DNA of 20,967 bases from Ectocarpus siliculosus. Its lineage: Eukaryota; Sar; Phaeophyceae; Ectocarpales; Ectocarpaceae. Position 1 is the stretch's first letter; each line of letters starts with the position of its first letter. Position numbers and translations under genes: made by a program. Of the stretch, positions 10,424 to 20,933 are shown in pieces. The stretch is from positions 607,668 through 628,634 of the forward strand of contig FN649730.1 of the NCBI GenBank assembly GCA_000310025.1. The letters are read 5' to 3'. The notes under the pieces are model-generated. The model was not told the DNA's origin. It made no database searches and was given only the letters and a program-made list of their open reading frames with translations.

Positions 10424-13400
10424 CTGTCGAGCAAGGACACAAAGCAAAACAAAAAAAAAATGTTTTACAAGTGCACTGTACAGGCTTGAATAGACTCAAA
10501 AAGAGCCCAGTACCTAGCCGGTGTTTTTTCCCGTCCCCCTCGACCGTGGTATTTTCCCGAACGGGTATGCATAGTATTTCCGTGATTGGATATATATTTT
10601 CTCAAAAGATGGCACACAGGTATATATTACACGTGTCTTCGTAGACGTACCAGGAACAACAGAGCAAAACGCGGGCGCAACAGGGGGTGTGCATTGCTTG
10701 ACCGTCATAAGAGCAAAGAGCAATAACAAAAAAACAGAGGTCTAGAGAGGGGGGTCATGATCAAATATTTTACGACCTCGCCGCTTTGCCAATCCACCCC
10801 TGCCGACAATTCGTGACCAATCGTGCGACGAAAGGGGCAACAGGTCTCATACAACAGCCTCGTCGATTTTTGCATCACGCCCTTCTGTGCTCGCCGGCGC
10901 CTTTGTACTCCAGGATTGGGACAGGGACAGGTTCTCTTAACAATGTATGTACAGACGGCAGTCATTTTGCCCTCTATACGGCGGGTATGTGCCAGGTCGA
11001 TTCACCTACCCTATGTAGCGAGCACCCGCCCCATAAGAGGGCACCCGCCCTAATCCAATAGTAGTCTACGCAGCAAAATTGACTTGAGCAAACATATGTT
11101 TAAAAGTATTCAATCCGTCCTTTGGGGTTAGGGTTGGGGCTAGGGATACGGTCTGCGTGCCCCCCTCCTTATTATTTTTCTATATACGCTTAAAATCCTG
11201 CGTAGGCGGTCCTAAATCAAAGAACAATCCGACTTCATTGTTCCACCCTTTCCAAGACGTTCCATACGCCCTTTACAGTCCCCCCTGCAGAGGGGCCGTG
11301 CCTTTACTCAAGACCGTGCTTACCCATACTGCACGCAGTCTCCAAAGGCCACTCCGGTGATGTAGTTTCCCCCCATACGAAGCCCCGGGGCGGCCTTGAG
11401 TCCCTCTTGCAGCTCCTCCAGGATGGCCAGGTGGCCCCTCTGGTACCTGCGGTCGGTGTTCGCAGCACATGTCAGAGCAGCGAGCGGTGAAGAGCGGTGA
11501 AGAGTATGACGGCACGATTCTAGGGGATGGGGCAGTTTGTTGTCGTGTGACTGCAACGGCGACAACAGCAGCAGCGGTACTCAAAAAAACAACAACAGCA
11601 GACCTTAAGACCCACCAGCAACACAACAGCAGCATCAACAACAGCAACAACAAATACATCAGCAACAGCAACAACAACATCATCACCAACAACAACAACA
11701 ACATTAACAGCAGCAACGACGCCCAGCCGGAAAGCGGACGCTTATTTCGAGGGGGGGGGGGGGGGGGGATCTACAGATAGGACCGGGCGAATGTGGTGCG
11801 CGCTTGGGGTAGCGGTTTTCGGTGATCAGCCGCAGCCAGGCACTTCCAACCGAAACAATGGTGTTTGCATTGCACCGCACTACCATTGTCGTCGCTGACA
11901 TCGTATTCTCTATTCCAAAAAAAAAAACAAAGCACCCTGTGTATAACATGGACGCGTATTTGCAAGGAGGTTGACGAAACAACATCTACCCGAAACCTAA
12001 AAGTAGCAATGAAAACAAAGCATACTCCCCCCTCTTTATGTTCATCCATCCGAAAAATAAATACCAGTAGAACTTCGGAGCACGGAAATGTTGGAGTTCA
12101 ACGATGAAAATGAAGAGAAAAATACTCTATAGGTCGTGAGACGAGCAGACCAGCTCACTGTCGTGTGGGATGACATTTCCCACACCACAAAGCAGCAGCG
12201 ATATATATGGCGCCTCCACAACAACAGAGCATGGTGTGCATCATGCCTTCAATCTTGCAAAACACGCCAAAAAAACTAATCTCTAAATATCTCAATCGAC
12301 GTAGCAAAGAATAGTTTTGTCGGAATTTTCGCCGTAAAGACTTACGAGAAAAAAAGGCCACTACTTCACAATAACGCGGAATGGAAAAACCGTTACACAT
12401 GGTATGGACCATTTTACTGGTGTGGGAGGGCTAAGGTTCAAGACTCACTGCGGGATGGCGGTTTTCCACAAGCGGCAGCCGAGAACCTTCGGGGGAGGCG
12501 CATCGTCCTTGAGAAGGATTGTGCGGATGTCCCTGTCGCACTCCGCCACGATCTCATCGTCCGAAAGGTCCTGTTACAAAAGAAGAATACAAGACCGAAC
12601 GGGTAGTCTTTCTGTGAGGTTATGTTTACCTTCTAAAAACGACCATGGTTGGCGAAAAAAGAAGGATAAACAACGTAAATAGAGATATTCATCGTACAAG
12701 AACGACGGGTTGCACCAACAATCACTAGGCCACGATATTGAGTCCCCAAAACTGAAAGATAAAAATACCCAAACAAAAACAAAACTGGGACCGGTTGTAT
12801 AATTCCACGAATTGTGCGGCTATCGGTTACTGTATATCGCAACGGGGTCGTTGCTGTAACTCGGTACTGTATCTCGTCCGCAAGGTCTTAATTATTTCTA
12901 GGATAAAAGTTGATGGACAAAGGGAAACAAACGAGAGAGATACATGAGATATTAGTTACAGAAGAACACTGGGATGCGCCAACAATCAATCCGCCACGGT
13001 ATGTATCACGCCCGAAAGGGCATTTCAAGGAAAAAGTAACGGTTGAAAACGCACATGCCTTGACATAAAAAAAAAAACACGCACAACACAGTCGCAGAAA
13101 CATATCGGTAGGCACCAACCAATCACAATCACGCCGCTCAAGTGGGAGGGAACAAACACGAAACCATCCAACCCAACATACACACAACCACCCAACACGT
13201 CGCCTGTACAAGCAGTGTTGGTTTGTGTCTCACACATCTATCTTGTCGTCCGAACGAACGGTCTTGGGAAAGGACCACGAATAACGAAAAACTTCAAGGC
13301 ATTTTGTATGGCATATCGTTGGCCCTGATGGACGGGTCCGCAGTCGCCCCCGCTTTAAGAATACTAGTCTAATGGTTTGTATATTTTTTTTAGTGTCCAT

Positions 13401-16146
13401 AAAGGGGGAAAGTGTCCGTACAATAATATGCCTCCCTTATCGAAAGTTAGGTGTGTTGTTGTAGACTGGCTCCACAATAGTAAGGTTAACATTCAGGGCA
13501 CCATGGTTCTGAAATAAACATCACCTGTAAGCGGGGGTTATCCTTTACTTACAGTAGCGGTTCTAAAGCGGGAGCGACTACTGTATTCAGGGGGTGGCAC
13601 CTTCGACGAAATGATTCTATTGTTTGTCCGCTTTGTGGCACGACACCACTAGGCCGCTGTCTCGACGCGTAACATCGACAGAAATGGTTGTATCCACGAC
13701 GGGAATAAAACACAGTCGCCCCTCAGTAGAGGACACACATGGTTTATACACGTGTCCTCTAAACCGGAGAAGTGTTCTTCAGGTTGATACCCCTCCTCAC
13801 GTTGTATACTCTGCGAGCCACCATGCCTGTGAAAAAAGGTTGTTCTTAACCGCGGGGAGTGTCCTTTAAAATGGTGCACACAACCGAGAGATAACGAGAT
13901 AACTGCGTACCTTGATCGCGGGGTCTTGGGCACCCCCGATGTAGTTGAGCAGCATGGCGTAGCCCTCTGGGGCTCTCCCTGGGAATAGCGACGATGACCA
14001 GATCGTGCCCAAGGTCCTAACAAAAAAATGACGGTTACAGCAATAGATATGACAGTTACATCAGTAGATATGACAGTCGCAGCAGCGAATATGACGGTGA
14101 CTGCAGTTGGCGTTCGGGACAAAACGCCCAGCGGAAAACCGCACGAGCGGTGAACAATCCAGGGCGGAAAGCGGGCATTTTTTTTTCATTGAGCACGACA
14201 AGAATAGTGCCTGATGGTGTAAAATACCGTATACGACACAAGATAACACACCCCCTGGATCAATTTTCAAACCTCGATTACTCCATGACGAAGAGGATGC
14301 ATAAACGAAACGATGCGTTTTCGGAGAGCTCTCGACCAGACGGGCACCGTGACACTTTCTGCTGTTGATAAATCGAGCTTTGAAAATCAGTCCAATGGGT
14401 GTGTTATCTTGTGTCGTATGCGGTAGGTGTAACTCCCAGTGGGTTACTGCTGTGACTGGGATGGTTGAGCCACTTTGCGATCTTTGTCGAAGGTTTTGAA
14501 GGCTCGAAGTGGACTACGTCGACAACGACAACAGCTGAACAACCGCGGCATCACCACCAGCACCAGTACCAGCAACAAGAATCACGACGTTCAAACAACA
14601 AACAACAACGACGACGACAACAACAACCACCACAACAAACGACGTCAACCACCCACAACAACAGCAACGATGCCAGCACCAGCACTAGCACCCAGCACTA
14701 GCAACAGCAACACCAGCTACACGAATCACAATGTCCTCCAAACAACAGCGAAAACAACGACGTCAACAACGTCAACATCAAACAACGTCACACCCACACC
14801 CACAACAACAACAACAACAGCACCGGTGCCAGCACCAGCACTAGCACCCAGCACTAGCAACAGCAACACCAGCTACAAGAATCACAATGTCCTCCAAACA
14901 ACAGCGAAAACAACATCAAACAACGTCACACCCACAGCAACAACAACAACAGCACCGGTGCCAGCACCAACACTAGCACCAGCCCCAAAAATGACAACAT
15001 GACAACGTCAAAAACAATACGAGAATTGGCACAAACACCACCACCACCAGCAACAAAAATGACAACAATATGAGGACATTGTCGATGACGGCGACGTCGG
15101 ATCCAAAAGACAAGAGCCAAGCTACAGACCTGATCTTCATCTTCCTCGGGATGAGGTTGCCGAACCCGGTGAGGTCGACCTTGAAGGACGACTTGGGGTA
15201 CGCCAGGGTTACGCTCGCCACGGGGGGGTAGTACACCTCGTCCAATCGCGCCGCTTCCGGCACAATATCCTGAGTTTTAAGACAAAAACAAAAAAATGAA
15301 GTATACAACACCAAAGGATGGAGGGAGGGGGGGGGGGTAGTAATGAAAACGCATGCCTTAGTCGTTAGACCATTGACCCCGCATCTCTACAATGCCGGGA
15401 AGGATCCATATGCACTAGGTGGCCCGATATATCCCGAGTTTAAAACAATAGCAGCAATGAACAACACAAGTCGGCAGTGACAACAAATCACCAAATTAAT
15501 ACAGTAAACAATCGGCAAGTCGCAATCACATTTGCTGGCACACTAACATAAAACCCCGACAAATCAGAATCACAAAGAGTACACAACTATACATGATCGA
15601 CATATCGGAACCGCAAAAAACACAGCAGTTACAATCATCCACGATCGACAAATCGGATTCCCAAACACATACTGTACACCCGTTGTAAACAAATATCGAC
15701 AAATCAGAACCACAGCACCACAAATGCTGTCATCATACAACTAAAATATTCGACAAATCGGAACCTTAATCGTCCCTTCTCACCCGCAGTCCCTCGACGG
15801 AGGCCAGCCTGTGGGCCGGCGCGGTGCAAACGGCAACCTTAGCCTGGAGGCGTTTGGGCCCCTTGGGGGTGTCGAAGGCGAGGAGGTAGCCGCCGTCCTC
15901 TGACCGCTTGATGCCCTTCATCACCCACGACGTCCGCATCTGGTTCACAGAAAGGGTGGGAGAGGGGTGTGTGATCTGTCCGCAGAATTCTGATTGAGGG
16001 CAACAATCACAGCGACAACTGTCACCACAAACAACGACAGCACCAACACCAACACCTACACCAACGACAAAAATAATTATCACTACCACCACCACCACCA
16101 TGATCACCACCAACACCTTGATCACCACCACCACCACCACCACCAC

Positions 16147-16181
<35 letters not shown>

Positions 16182-19100
16182 CCACTAACATAATAAAAAC
16201 AAACCAAAAGAGAAAGGGGTGCAGGCTTAAGAGACAACCATCACCATTACCACCAACTTGTGCACCTTGTCTTTCCCCATGGCCTTAAGAGCAGCGTTGG
16301 GGAGCATCTGCAGCCCCTCGCGGAAAGAGCCCAGGCTGCCTCCCTGGTACGTGGGAAGGTCCTCCGATTGCAGCGGCTCCGGGAGCTCCTTCTCCTGCCG
16401 TGCACGCTCCTAACACCCAGGGGGGTAAGTTTTAAACACATCAAAACATCAAGGATGCCAGATATGAAAGGCAAACAAGACAAGGAAAAGTGAGAGCGGA
16501 AATCACGAAAAAATGGTGGTGGTGGTGGTGGTGTTGGCCAGACATGAAAGACAAACAATTGCAAGGAAAAGCGAGAGTGGAAATCGCGAAAAATTGGTGG
16601 TGGTGGTGGTGGTGGTGGCTAGAGTGAACGACAAACAATTCGATAGGAAAAGTGAGAGAGGAAAACACGAGAGGACAGCGCGAAGGGGGGGGTAGAGAAA
16701 AATTTCAGAACAAATGGCGGGGGGTTCCGTAGTATCTCTCGAGTTTGACACCCCAATGTCCTGTTCCACGCGTTCTTGGCAACGAAAATATAAGTGAGAG
16801 CGGAAAACACGAAAAAACAGCGCTAGGGGGTGGGTAAAAGCAAATTTCAAGAGAAAAAACTGCGTGTGGGTTCCGTAGTACCTCTCGCGCTTGAAACCCC
16901 TACATATGTCGTGCTTCACGCGTTCATGGCAACGAAATATATGTGAGAGTGGAAAACACGAATAAACAGGGCTAGGGCGGGGTAGAGAAAACAGCACAAG
17001 AAAAAGCTGCGTGTGGGTTCCGTAGTACCTCTCGAGTTTGAAACCCCTACATATGTCCTGCTTCACGCGTTCATGGCAACGAAAAAATATGATACGGCAT
17101 GTCTTCTGCGATGACGGAAAATAATCTCTACGACGACTGGTCAGGTACGAGAGACGGAAGCCCTAAGGAGAAGGGGAAGGTCAGGACGTTTCTTATCCAA
17201 CGCAGAGGGAATACCGCGAACGTAACACGGCATGACAAATGCCGCACTGAACCGATGTGCATCCGCGTCTTCGATGACCGGCTGAACGATAACACGATTG
17301 TTTTGAGGGGGATTAAGAGCACCGCCCCGCCTAGTCCGGCATGGACCCTTCCCCGGGGAGTGTGCGGCATGGAGAAAACGAAACGGGTTCAGCTCTTGGA
17401 CTCAGAGCGCAAGGAAGACAAACGACGAAAAATCACGTCCATTCTGGTTACAAAAAAAACATTCTGGTTACAAAAAGGTACTCTAACGCGCTTCAATACT
17501 CGTCCACACGACCGACACCTCTTTTACTCACTGAGTGCTACAGGGAGCTATCCATCTCCTGACTTGTCTGCAGCATTTTTTGCATGGTGGCGCCCGTCTG
17601 CTAGAATATACTGGGGTCGACCTCTCTCTTCTGGATCTCTCTCTCTCTCTCTCTCTCTCACTCTCTCTCTCTCCTTCTCCCTTCGCCTCACCCGGCTCTC
17701 CCTGGTTCTCTTTTCCCGACAATCTTTTTCTCCCCATGCTCAGCTTCAGACCTCTGTCTTCAGTACCTCTGCCTCCAATATGCATGGACTAAGTTCCTGC
17801 CGACTGACCTTAAGCCTGAGAATAGCACCGTCGATCAAGCCCGGACCGCCCAACACTTCCAACCGAGCGACCTGGACAACAATTGCGGAGCAGCAAAGAT
17901 CGAAGGCAGAGTACCACAGGAAGGGTGGGGTGAACTCTTCTGTGTAGCCACGTGTTGGAGTAAACGACACACGTGCGGTGAGCGCTGATATAAAGTGAAG
18001 ACAAACAAAAAAAATAGAGCAAGAGCGGCTGAGGGTAAGAAGCGTGCTTGCGAAGCACAGCATGAATTGATCTCCGGAACCACCTGACGAAAACAGCAGT
18101 GCCTGCGTTTTCGGAGGAAAATCGAAATTACTGCCACGGCTGTTGCCGAAAAGAGTACAAGCATGTTTGGAGGAGAACCCAGCACACGAGAGCATAGTTG
18201 CTTTTGTTGCCGTTGCCGTTTCTGTCACAGCTGTTGTTGTTGTTGTCGGGGATTGTCGTTGTTGTCCTCGTGACAAACCAATCATCATCCTTGTCCTAAA
18301 GTTCATTCATCCATGTTCGCATTCCCGCGTGAATCAATCCTACGCTTTGAAGTAGTTCATCCTTATCCTTGTGCTTTTCCTTATCCCTATCACGCGTGGA
18401 TAACCCCCAATTGTATACTCATTCTCATGTTTGTCTTTGTATCGATCGTTATCTTCATCCCTCTCCGGCGTGGATCAATCCCACCTATTGGAAGCGGTTT
18501 ACCCTTGTCCTCGTCCATATCCCCGTCCCGACTGGATCAACCCCAACTCTTTGAGCGGTTTATCCGTGTCCGTTTCATGTATCCTTATCCTTGTCCATAT
18601 CCCCCGTGGATAAATCCCACGTGAAAGCGGGTTAACGTTATACTCAATCGTATCCTTATCCCCGTCCCGCGTGGATAAATCCAACCCTTGAAATCGGTTT
18701 AACCTTACGCTCGCCCTTACCCCTACGCCACGTGGACCGTCCCCACCTTCTTAAGGGCGGCCTTGATGGCCAGCTTGGACGGGTCACCCGCGTAAACCCC
18801 GCTCACGAAGGGGTCGATGAGCCTTTCGAACGCCTCTGGCCCCAGGTGCCTAGTAACGAACTCTTTTACGCTCTCCTCGTAGTCCGAAGGGGGGGGCAGC
18901 ACCAGCCCGATGGCACCCAGCCCGGCCCTGCGGTTTTTTCATCACAGGGGTCATGGTAATGGATATATGGAAATGGTTACACGGTGTATGGTTGTATGAA
19001 ACTGTGATGAATATGGTTATATGCTGTATTTCGTGGTCCGAAGGGGGGGCAGCACCAGTCCGACGGCACCCAGCCCGGCCCTTCGGATATTTCCATCACA

Positions 19101-20933
19101 CGGGCCATGGTAATGGATATATGGCAATGGTAAAACGGTTATATAGAACTGTGATGAACATGGTGATGTGCTGTATTTCGTGGTCCGAAGGGAGACGCAG
19201 CACCAGCCCGACCCTACGGTTATTTCCGTCATACGGGCCATGGTAATGGATACATGGCAATGGTAAAACGGTTATATAGAACTGTGATGAATATGGTGAG
19301 GTTATATAGAACTGTGATGAATATGGTGATATATTTCGTGGTACGAAGCGGGAGGCAGCACCAGCCCAATAGAACGCAGCCTGGCCCTGCGTTTTTTTCC
19401 ATCACACGGGTCATGGTAATGGATATATGGTAATGGTTACACGGTTTATGGTCGTATGGAACTGTGATGAATATGGTGATATATTTCGTGGTACGAAGGG
19501 GGAGGCAGCACCAGTCCGATAGCACCCAGCCCGGCCCTGTGGTTTCTTCCATCACACGGGCCACAAAAACCCCACGGTTTGGTGAGGCAAGACACAAGAG
19601 ATGTGCCGCTTCTACGCAGTCTGTACTCATGCCATCGACGATGTGTTTCCGGGAAACTGCAGGCGGCCCGCCGGGTCAGCTGGGCCAAGGCACTCAGCAG
19701 AGATCGGAACGGCTTTCACTATGGGGGCAACCACAACAACATAACCGTACCGTAGACCAGAACGGTTCTTTGATGTGAAGACAACACCACCAAATGCATT
19801 ACCTTTGAATAGACCGGAACGGTTCTTCAACGTGAGACAACAACGGCAACGACCACCACCACAACAACGACATTACCTTTGCATAGATCGGAAAGCTTCT
19901 TGCATGTGAAGACAACAATGCCACCACCACAACAACGACGTTACCTTTGCATAGATCGGAAAGCTTCTTGCATGTGAAGGTGAAGACAACAATGCCACCA
20001 CCACAACTGGAACAACAACGACAAAACAGTGACAACATTACCGTTGCGTGGACCGGGACGGTTCTCAAACGTCAAGACAACACCAACAACGACAACAAGA
20101 ACGAAAACAAAAAATAAACGCACTTCTGTACACTACCTGATCTTTCCGGGCCATGAAAGCAACCAAAAGTCCGTAATGATCGACTGCAGGGAAGAGGGAA
20201 GGGGGAACAGGCCTCCCTCCCAGAACACGAAGCGGGGCAGGGTGGGGTCCGCCAGAACGAGGTCCTCCTGTGTCGCAACGAAAAAAAACACAGGCCGGCA
20301 TGTACACGTTACAGTTCAGTATGTTGTAGGCTTGAGCAGACTCAAAATAAAAGCCCATTGCCCAGTAGATATTTTCTCAACGCCTGCTCCAAAGTCTCCC
20401 ACACAATGCGTACGCTTTAAACAGACGTAAATTAAGCCGCAGTTTTTCTCAACACTCCGTATTTGTTAAGACTTGTGGCAGGATCTCGAGCGAGCATCGT
20501 CTTTCGGCGATGGTACGTACAGTATATGTTCCAAAAACCCGGATCACATCAGACACGAGCAAACAGACCGGCTCAATCGATGTACCCAACTGACCGACGG
20601 GTCATCGGACAAATCGACCGGTGCTTCAACAAACATTGTTCCTCTTAAACAGCGGTTAGTACCTGCTGAATAACTCCGCAGCCAAGAAATTCACGCTCAA
20701 CATTACATCAAACATAAGAACCTGAAGCGCCATTGTCAGCCCACAAGAGGAAACAACAGCTCCAGCATCGACCAAACTAGAGGTTCAGAAGGGGCGGGCA
20801 CGACGCTGATACTGACAAAAAAATGTAACTTTCAATTGATCGATCTTTAGTTACCTTGAGGCCCAGGTCGACCGTGGTCCGCATGATGTAGGGTGTCGGC
20901 TGGAACGAGTTGGGGCCCTCTTCCCACAGGAAT
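10330..20933 (-). CDS. PPOX: Protoporphyrinogen IX oxidase, C-terminal 445 residues, 11 exons (5' end outside window)
   Basis: This gene encodes the FAD flavoenzyme that oxidises protoporphyrinogen IX to protoporphyrin IX, the last step shared by heme and chlorophyll synthesis, normally in the plastid of algae. Coding exons on the minus strand are 20855-20933, 20137-20267, 18747-18927, 17809-17871, 16266-16409, 15784-15939, 15130-15269, 13911-14016, 12449-12570, 11324-11446 and 10330-10423. All ten introns begin GT, end AG and keep phase. Family landmarks appear in order: [102 protein letters not shown] and the C-terminal FAD-contacting [15 protein letters not shown]. The family is usually about 480-550 residues, so only the N-terminus (targeting peptide and GxGxxG motif) is missing. 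It converges on MZT1. Family membership is recognised from memory of plant PPO1/PPO2-type enzymes; plastid location is inferred. Confidence 0.95.
11324..11446 (-). CDS. PPOX: PPOX exon with C-terminal FAD-contact motif
   Basis: 123 nt, one base plus 40 codons plus two bases. Acceptor GACCGCAG, donor TATGG|GTAAGC. It encodes [17 protein letters not shown] and [20 protein letters not shown]. The GGNYxxGVAxGxCV motif contacts FAD at the C-terminus in known structures of the family. Confidence 0.96.
11585..11712. repeat. CAA/CAG microsatellite
   Basis: AACAACAGC/AACATCA-type simple repeat in the 1002-nt PPOX intron 11447-12448, followed at 11751-11768 by a run of G. Confidence 0.95.
11751..11768 (+). 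repeat. G18 run
   Basis: An uninterrupted G-tract inside a PPOX intron; on the transcribed sense strand it becomes a poly-C tract. Length is likely to vary and may be misassembled. Confidence 0.9.
12449..12570 (-). CDS. PPOX: PPOX exon
   Basis: 122 nt, phase 0 in and phase 2 out. Acceptor TTGTAACAG, donor CCGCA|GTGAGT. It encodes [40 protein letters not shown] and two bases of a Gln codon. The W-x-x-AIPQ motif, split across the intron, is conserved in the family. Confidence 0.94.
12684..13030. repeat. Dispersed direct repeat pair in a PPOX intron
   Basis: About 12684-12760 and 12947-13030 share GAGATA, ACAAGAACGACGGGTTGCACCAACAATCA-like text (GAACACTGGGATGCGCCAACAATCA in the second) and GCCACGRTAT. 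A diffuse third trace (CACCAACCAATCACAATCACGCC) lies at 13113. Confidence 0.6.
13911..14016 (-). CDS. PPOX: PPOX exon
   Basis: 106 nt, one base plus 35 codons. Acceptor TTTGTTAG, donor ATCAAG|GTACGC. It encodes [34 protein letters not shown], equivalent to TLGTIYSSSLFPNRAPPGR and LLNYIGGS of plant enzymes. Four exact 21-bp-period repeats lie directly upstream of the acceptor (14028-14111). Confidence 0.96.
14028..14111. repeat. 21-bp repeat, four units
   Basis: ATGACAGTTACAGCAGTAGAT-like units start at 14028, 14049, 14070 and 14091, an exact 21-bp period, ending 12 nt before the acceptor of exon 13911-14016. Confidence 0.93.
14216..14430. repeat. Inverted repeat with potential to form a large hairpin
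   Basis: The left arm 14216-14280 and the right arm 14368-14430 are reverse complements with few mismatches; the best block is CGACACAAGATAACACACCC. The loop is about 87 nt. It sits in PPOX intron 14017-15129, so the primary transcript could fold here. It may be a MITE remnant. Confidence 0.85.
14530..15062. repeat. CAA/CAG/ACC-rich compound repeat
   Basis: Low-complexity sequence with a higher-order duplication: AGCACTAGCACCCAGCACTA at 14681 recurs at 14837 (156-bp period), followed by the same ~90-bp block, with a third partial unit at about 14955. It gives long but meaningless plus-strand open frames. Confidence 0.92.
15130..15269 (-). CDS. PPOX: PPOX exon
   Basis: 140 nt, phase 0 in and phase 2 out. 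Acceptor AAAACTCAG, donor ATCAG|GTCTGT. It encodes [30 protein letters not shown] and [12 protein letters not shown], plus two bases of an Arg codon. [13 protein letters not shown] is a hallmark of the family. Confidence 0.95.
15557..15765. repeat. CGACAAATCGGAACC repeat, five units
   Basis: Cores begin at 15557, 15598, 15646, 15697 and 15751 (spacing 41-54 bp), with a weaker one near 15512. They occupy the half of intron 15270-15783 next to the upstream exon. Confidence 0.88.
15784..15939 (-). CDS. PPOX: PPOX exon
   Basis: 156 nt, 52 codons, phase 0 on both sides. Acceptor GTGAACCAG, donor CTGCGG|GTGAGA. It encodes [42 protein letters not shown] and LASVEGLR, aligning with the family's KLSWKLSGI...SGGYNLTYETP...VMTVPSHVAS. 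The initial ATG is internal and not a start codon. Confidence 0.94.
16021..16188. repeat. ACC/CAC and CAGCAA microsatellite cluster
   Basis: Simple-sequence runs of CACCAC and CAACAG type fill much of the 326-nt PPOX intron 15940-16265. Confidence 0.9.
16266..16409 (-). CDS. PPOX: PPOX exon
   Basis: 144 nt, 48 codons, phase 0 on both sides. Acceptor GTGTTAG, donor GACAAG|GTGCAC. It encodes [31 protein letters not shown] and LKAMGKDK. The [11 protein letters not shown] stretch corresponds to the family's GSFRKGLRMLPEAI. The charged start is the variable loop of plant enzymes. Confidence 0.94.
16456..17080. repeat. Nested tandem repeats in a PPOX intron
   Basis: At 16456-16680, three ~80-bp units combine ACAAACAA..GGAAAAG, GTGAGAGCGGAAA and, in two of them, (TGG)n runs. 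From 16690 to 17080 three ~140-bp units follow, marked by TTCCGTAGTA at 16735, 16871 and 17018, each with TCTCG.GTTTGA and CACGCGTTCATGGCAACGA. The two families share the GTGAGAG.GGAAAACACGA module. Confidence 0.88.
17639..17676. repeat. (CT)n microsatellite
   Basis: A nearly pure CT run with one interruption, inside the intron 16410-17808 of PPOX. Confidence 0.95.
17809..17871 (-). CDS. PPOX: PPOX short exon
   Basis: 63 nt, exactly 21 codons, phase 0 on both sides. Acceptor TTGTCCAG, donor AAG|GTCAGT. It encodes [21 protein letters not shown], aligning with the family's KVWxLEqnGGSIIGGTFKAIQ segment, which bridges the neighbouring exons. A symmetric exon this small could be skipped without a frameshift, but it carries conserved residues. 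It lies antisense within a long plus-strand open frame (17099-17947). Confidence 0.9.
18326..18735. repeat. Degenerate tandem repeat abutting a PPOX donor site
   Basis: CGTGGATAAATCC-type cores occur at 18326, 18393, 18469, 18531, 18605, 18670 and finally 18731, spaced 61-76 bp, linked by CTTATCC/CCGTCC-rich sequence. The last core sits inside the donor region of exon 18747-18927. Confidence 0.8.
18747..18927 (-). CDS. PPOX: PPOX exon with amplified 5' boundary
   Basis: 181 nt, acceptor CCGCAG, donor AAG|GTGGGG. The first base completes the Arg codon split by the upstream intron, then 60 codons follow: [37 protein letters not shown] and IKAALKK. This is the substrate-domain block conserved in all plant-type enzymes. 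The acceptor plus about 50 coding bases recur as four degenerate tandem copies upstream (19029-19560). The first copies carry frameshifts or altered acceptors, which supports this exon as the functional one: it alone continues into SGVYAGDPS. Confidence 0.95.
19029..19561. repeat. Four tandem decoy copies of the PPOX exon 18747-18927 acceptor region
   Basis: Units begin near 19029, 19176, 19334 and 19484 (periods 147, 158, 150 bp). The true junction at 18876-19028 forms the fifth member. Each unit carries, on the minus strand, a CATTACCAT intron tail, a GTGTGATGG block, an acceptor-like site and about 50 nt matching the exon start (GGCCGGGCTGGGTGC...). Unit 2 is deleted within the exon part. 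A 30-bp piece is duplicated again at 19270-19329. Confidence 0.92.
19745..20092. repeat. Degenerate minisatellite in the same PPOX intron
   Basis: Five units start at GACC/GATC positions 19755, 19812, 19886, 19954 and 20051. Each has GACCGGAACGGTTCTT or GATCGGAAAGCTTCTT, then a GTGAAGACAACA block and a CAA/CCA-rich tail. Units 3 and 4 are nearly identical. An isolated related copy lies at 8384-8437. Confidence 0.85.
20137..20267 (-). CDS. PPOX: PPOX exon
   Basis: 131 nt, acceptor CGACACAG, donor ATCAG|GTAGTG, phase 0 in and phase 2 out. It encodes [16 protein letters not shown] through LLSWPGKI plus the first two bases of an Arg codon. The block corresponds to the family's KDDLVLGDPxAPRFVxW and GKIR segments. 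The preceding intron (20268-20854, 587 nt) has no strong tandem repeat. Confidence 0.95.
20855..20933 (-). CDS. PPOX: PPOX exon (first one in window)
   Basis: 79 nt. The acceptor TTTGCCAG is followed by one base completing a split codon (phase 2 intron upstream), then 26 codons [14 protein letters not shown]...VDLGLK. The donor is AAG|GTAACT, phase 0. It matches the conserved GPNSFQP block that follows the FAD-binding domain start in this family. The upstream intron and the N-terminal exons lie beyond the window edge. Confidence 0.93.

Follow-up and report, generated by a model that had tools for sequence, protein, structure and literature searches.

The window, by which we mean the whole 20,967-nucleotide stretch of Ectocarpus siliculosus DNA analysed here, carries a gene for protoporphyrinogen oxidase (PPOX) on its minus strand. 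It corresponds to 607668-628634 of contig C5. Eight predicted exons, running from 20933 to 13911 and separated by introns of 326-1,399 nt, join in an uninterrupted protein frame, and the 333 aa that they encode match TIGR00562 (protoporphyrinogen oxidase) with 245 bits (cut-off 97.85, E 1.1e-72) as well as Pfam Amino_oxidase. A genome-wide search (189 Mb, 492 contigs; G+C content 53.6% in the sampled DNA) found this gene to be the sole match to the profile region 120-181, while three other loci match the N-terminal part of TIGR00562 only, up to profile position 58. A minus-strand reading frame at 11320-11450 resembles a C-terminal PPOX exon by eye, and the gene seems to continue past the eight exons used. 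One of the PPOX introns ends in an array of repeats that involve its own acceptor and the exon that follows. The features of this region are listed below in the direction of transcription; a slash marks the splice position, scores in bits refer to the matrices described further on, and the acceptors of copies 1-4 are called decoys.

20137..20267, minus strand: PPOX exon before the array-bearing intron, ending in ...PGKIR; donor AG/GTAGTG, 6.9 bits
18928..20136, minus strand: array-bearing intron, 1,209 nt; its removal by splicing keeps the PPOX frame
19486..19560, minus strand: copy 1, CACAG/GGCC, exon-like part from 19536, 51-nt exon head, in frame; acceptor 3.6 bits
19411..19485, minus strand: spacer 1, 75 nt
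19336..19410, minus strand: copy 2, CGCAG/GGCC (19386), 51-nt exon head; acceptor 2.2 bits
19238..19335, minus strand: spacer 2, 98 nt, with an additional 30-nt tandem repeat at 19270-19329
19178..19237, minus strand: copy 3, CGTAG/GGTC (19213), 36-nt exon head (15-nt deletion); acceptor -0.5 bits
19105..19177, minus strand: spacer 3, 73 nt
19031..19104, minus strand: copy 4, CGAAG/GGCC (19080), 50-nt exon head (1-nt deletion, frameshift); acceptor 2.8 bits
18950..19030, minus strand: spacer 4, 81 nt, adjoining the real acceptor block
18877..18949, minus strand: last copy, CGCAG/GGCC, with the first 51 nt of the real exon; acceptor 6.3 bits
18747..18927, minus strand: real PPOX exon after the array, 181 nt, ending in ...AALKK; TIGR00562 match

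Within the last 633 nt of the intron, four partial copies of the acceptor block and exon head, each followed by a spacer, precede the real exon. A unit measures roughly 150 bp, and the array holds about 4.5 of them. Each begins with 22-24 nt of acceptor block, continues with 36-51 nt from the start of the exon and, in every copy but the last, closes with a spacer 73-98 nt long. On the minus strand the five blocks of acceptor and exon head start at 19560, 19410, 19237, 19104 and 18949, the last being the real one, and the array stops at 18877, having covered 51 nt of the real exon. Leaving indels aside, the exon part of every copy stops at exon base 51. Copies 1-4 pass from there into a spacer, and only 18949..18877 enters the full 181-nt exon. 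Since spacer 4 directly precedes the real acceptor block, the upstream context of the functional acceptor is itself array sequence. All four decoys retain the AG, and two of them (not those of copies 3 and 4) retain CAG/G. Copy 1 has an additional AG 9 nt upstream of its acceptor, and both copies 1 and 2 carry amino-acid changes in their exon-like parts. The initial annotation of this DNA had delimited the array as 18876-19561, which is right to a base (19560 to 18877), and had placed the flanking donor at 20137/20136 and the acceptor at 18928/18927, where we also find them, with the PPOX frame uninterrupted over the eight predicted exons. Its description of the unit as the intron 3' end plus the exon start is borne out by the five copies of acceptor and exon head; the figure of ~50 nt for the exon part suits copies 1, 2 and the last (51 nt), but copy 3 lacks 15 nt and copy 4 lacks 1 nt.

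The likeness of the exon start to the upstream intron is not a chance one. Aligned to that intron, the leading 50 nt of the exon gave a best local score of 77, the maximum in 300 dinucleotide shuffles being 30, and the same test at the other 13 PPOX exon borders gave a top score of 24. The comparison of intron 6 with its downstream exon, which reached 24 and beat 300 shuffles, was rejected as a duplication, for the match is a shared 12-nt C-rich word. Pairwise identity between copies of the array, counted over aligned positions, is 82-94% for exon parts, 75-95% for acceptor blocks and 85-93% for spacers. The exon part is no more alike than the spacer, so there is no sign of it being under additional constraint. 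By identity, spacer 1 pairs with spacer 4 (93%) and spacer 2 with spacer 3 (92%), whereas, judged by the end of the exon-like part, copies 1 and 2 go together (GTACCACGA), as do copies 3 and 4 (GGACCACGA). Such mosaic pairing would be usual for arrays evolving by unequal exchange or conversion. Among the best candidates scored, with very common words skipped, the whole array as a query found one place in the 189-Mb genome, and a 107-nt query across spacer 1 found four matches, all of them within the array. An introner or another transposon-derived repeat would need the unit to occur at many unrelated places, and within that scope the matches speak against such an origin.

We consider it probable, at roughly 80%, that the array is a neutral or nearly neutral product of tandem duplication, a 'mirage', tolerated as only its last copy reaches the full exon. 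The initial annotation had listed a tolerated slippage product, with only the last copy continuing into the exon, among three options, and of these it is the best supported, with slippage as one presumed mechanism. The intron-exon border would have been tandemly duplicated first, the duplicated segment reaching from ~24 nt inside the intron to base 51 of the PPOX exon and taking in a spacer of ~75 nt; expansion to about 4.5 units would then have come through ordinary minisatellite turnover, by replication slippage or unequal exchange. The earlier copies would sit in the intron and normally be removed with it. Only the last copy leads into the full exon because the remaining 130 nt of the exon and its donor follow that copy alone. 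We infer that this is how the array arose by mutation, that splicing picks the last acceptor and that selection on the array is absent or weak. The left edge is less simple. It coincides with the start of the acceptor block of copy 1, and the 100 nt before it do not resemble the spacer significantly (p 0.19-0.72). With no spacer before copy 1, a simple integer duplication does not fit this edge, which is compatible both with a duplication of spacer, acceptor and exon head followed by loss of the first spacer and with a duplication involving filler.

Several features of the sequence bear on whether the decoys could compete with the real acceptor. Acceptor and donor matrices were derived by expectation-maximisation on homology-located exons of the genome (156/157 with candidates). 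The real site (6.3 bits) scores 2.7-6.8 bits above the four decoys and is the best of 9 AGs, itself included, over the preceding 400 nt; four others, farther upstream in the same intron, outscore it on this weak matrix. The weakness can be gauged from the eight PPOX acceptors, three of which, in other introns, rank second, third and eighth among nearby AGs. Of the four exon-like acceptors that the initial annotation saw ahead of the real one, the AG is thus present in all, but none reaches the score of the real site, to the extent that the matrix can be trusted. The pyrimidine tract of the real acceptor is the poorest among the seven introns compared (0.55 versus 0.60-0.68, with decoys at 0.42-0.55), and its best 15-mer holds 10 pyrimidines versus 11-14 in the other introns compared. 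The AG-free zone before the acceptor, itself array sequence, measures 74 nt at the real site and 68-75 nt in copies 2-4. Given a real tract as poor as that of the decoys and a weak matrix, competition between decoy and real acceptors would be possible.

The array may cut PPOX splicing efficiency without any regulation and represent a mildly harmful expansion heading for loss. The similar upstream context of decoys 2-4 and the real site would agree with this, as would a mild depletion of exon-touching tandem duplications in sampled DNA (2 versus a mean of 6.1, P(<=2)=0.035; see below). However, the exon parts of the copies have diverged by 6-18%, so the array has persisted, and the eight examined exons keep an intact frame; we regard this reading as unlikely.

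The decoys might instead act as regulated poison sites, their use leading to a premature stop and mRNA decay and thereby tuning PPOX output. Joined to decoys 1-4, donor 20137 would lead to a stop 29, 27, 38 and 20 codons further on, respectively, so that use of any decoy would suit this role. The presence of AG in all four decoys and of CAG/G in two, a real acceptor context about as pyrimidine-poor as that of decoys 3 and 4, and the AG-free zones before copies 2-4, which resemble that of the real site, all point the same way. Against these stand the lower decoy scores, with CAG missing from copies 3 and 4, and exon-like parts that are no better conserved than the spacer. Moreover, AG retention matches chance: in simulations that let the real or the consensus acceptor drift by 8-18%, AG was kept in 4/4 decoys with a probability of 0.21-0.53, so its survival is no sign of selection or function. 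Poison cassette exons, as proposed in the initial annotation, are not supported, for the top donors past the decoy acceptors score 3.9-4.3 bits versus 6.4-8.4 bits for the true donors of the PPOX gene, and none falls within the range of the latter. Regulated poison sites thus appear quite improbable. We find it harder still to credit a splicing throttle, in which condition-dependent engagement of the decoys would send PPOX transcripts to decay and couple heme and chlorophyll supply to a minisatellite of variable copy number; the tests made do not support regulation by the array. Least credible of all is an assembly artefact, since the copies differ by substitutions (6-18% in the exon part) and indels, which argues against simple assembly stutter, and since the array lies within a 2.2-Mb contig, matched no second place in the search and is flanked by a coherent gene.

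We also asked how often exon borders are duplicated elsewhere in this genome. We compared 157 conserved exons (98/138 kinesin rows, 56/59 CCT rows and 3 amine-oxidase-like; 40/138 kinesin and 3/59 CCT rows were left out) with their own flanks of up to 1.2 kb, taking the edges of HMM matches, not annotated splice sites, as exon edges. A first sample had given 6/54 exons with a match at E<0.01; the larger one gave 12 match rows at E<=1e-3 from 8/157 exons, all direct and none inverted. Five cases were aligned and their splice sites placed with the matrices, and the remaining ones were judged from coordinates alone. Strict border duplications were found in 2/154 kinesin and CCT exons, both CCT and 0/98 kinesin, a sample too small for inference about gene classes. 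In the CCT exon C8:2702768-2703031, a single copy of the predicted acceptor with 47 nt of exon lies 213 bp off, beyond the acceptor, and is 96% identical. By this identity, the duplication would be younger than the PPOX array; its copied acceptor reaches 9.2 bits, more than the 6.0 of the real one, which cautions against reading usage from the matrix. In the CCT exon C38:125688-125810 (the case at C38:125707), 20 nt of the exon end and the donor have been copied 98 bp downstream, and the GT of the copy has become TT.

Other candidates were rejected as border duplications. The case at C11:1435968-1436223 is a tandem copy of a CCT coding end with a putative TAG stop and the sequence that follows, the copies lying 139 bp apart and being about 71-77% identical, and it was not counted. 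After splice-site placement, C38:123783 and C8:2704832 proved to be intronic. From coordinates alone, the four rows of a kinesin on C9 concern intron sequence lying about 10 nt beyond the match, C11:4403346 is a weak 30-nt match, and the reciprocal match of two C8 exon stretches covers 19 nt only.

Tandem duplications as such are common in this genome. The kinesin, CCT and three other loci, 218.7 kb in all, hold 21 clusters of them, and the 21-kb window holds seven; inverted pieces within 600 nt number eight in the 218.7 kb, counted unclustered. When the 21 clusters were placed at random, they touched an exon match 6.1 times on average and crossed a match edge 4.4 times, whereas 2/21 observed clusters touch a matched exon (P(<=2)=0.035) and one of these crosses its edge as matched. 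In this count the C8 case is scored as inside the exon, the HMM match extending a few bases beyond the predicted acceptor, and the C38 case, which falls below the length cut-off of the placement test, is not one of the two exon-touching clusters. No enrichment of tandem duplications at exons was thus found in the 218.7 kb and, if anything, there is mild depletion. On these samples, the idea of a general amplification of exon borders in the genome was rejected. Tandem duplications are common, and exon borders are sometimes hit.

Minisatellites also occur elsewhere within the PPOX introns, at 16457-17084, 14655-14951 and 19722-20076, with units of 81, 147, 156 and 59-68 nt. For the 59-nt array at 19722-20076, a coding-strand match at the preceding donor was looked for and not found. 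A further degenerate array of seven ~67-nt units (60-83% identical to the reference copy) occupies 18309-18746 and reaches the donor of the post-array exon. By eye its unit resembles that exon end with the donor, but the idea was rejected: in a search of the window, a profile of the six inner copies gave the exon end no better than E 14 (0.1 bits), which is not significant.

The closest counterparts of the PPOX array known to us are the 'mirages' of amphioxus (lancelets), minisatellites whose units span the 3' end of an intron and the start of an exon. The mirage of the globin gene BflGb6 has a unit of 150-160 bp, present 6 and 3 times in two haplotypes and 81-100% identical, and its splice signals are retained in many, though not all, units; PGBD5 and TnC are further mirage genes (PMC3902484). 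RT-PCR together with data on Adh3 is reported to suggest that mirages leave regular splicing undisturbed. The PPOX array resembles them in joining the intron 3' end and the 5' part of the exon in units of similar length. It differs from the BflGb6 mirage in belonging to the PPOX gene of a brown alga, in having about 4.5 units with exon parts 82-94% identical, and in being known from the sequence of one assembly. With a unit that holds the exon-intron border and a single copy that enters the full exon, the array, as its predicted splice sites define it, is a mirage in structural terms.

Two other phenomena invite comparison, to the extent that the sources consulted describe them. Intron gain by tandem duplication (the Rogers model, cited in PMC3087553) likewise copies exon sequence bearing splice signals within a gene, but the PPOX copies all lie inside one intron and a new intron is not evident. 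In human segmental duplications, internal tandem repeats located at exon-intron borders (PMC2812944) are likewise minisatellite expansions altering gene structure; however, they alter the length of exons or introns or create introns in recent paralogues, whereas the PPOX coding exon is predicted to be unchanged. In the open-access literature searched, as far as its accessible text goes, lancelet and human cases were found and no report of border arrays in algae. The PPOX array is thus apparently a known kind of structure in a new lineage. Should mirages prove common in brown algae, and not in lancelets alone, tandem duplication in genomes rich in introns would have led to duplicated borders more than once. 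Border arrays would then serve as natural experiments in which the spliceosome has to select one of several nearly identical acceptors. With a real acceptor and four graded decoys, the PPOX array would be well suited to a test of that choice.
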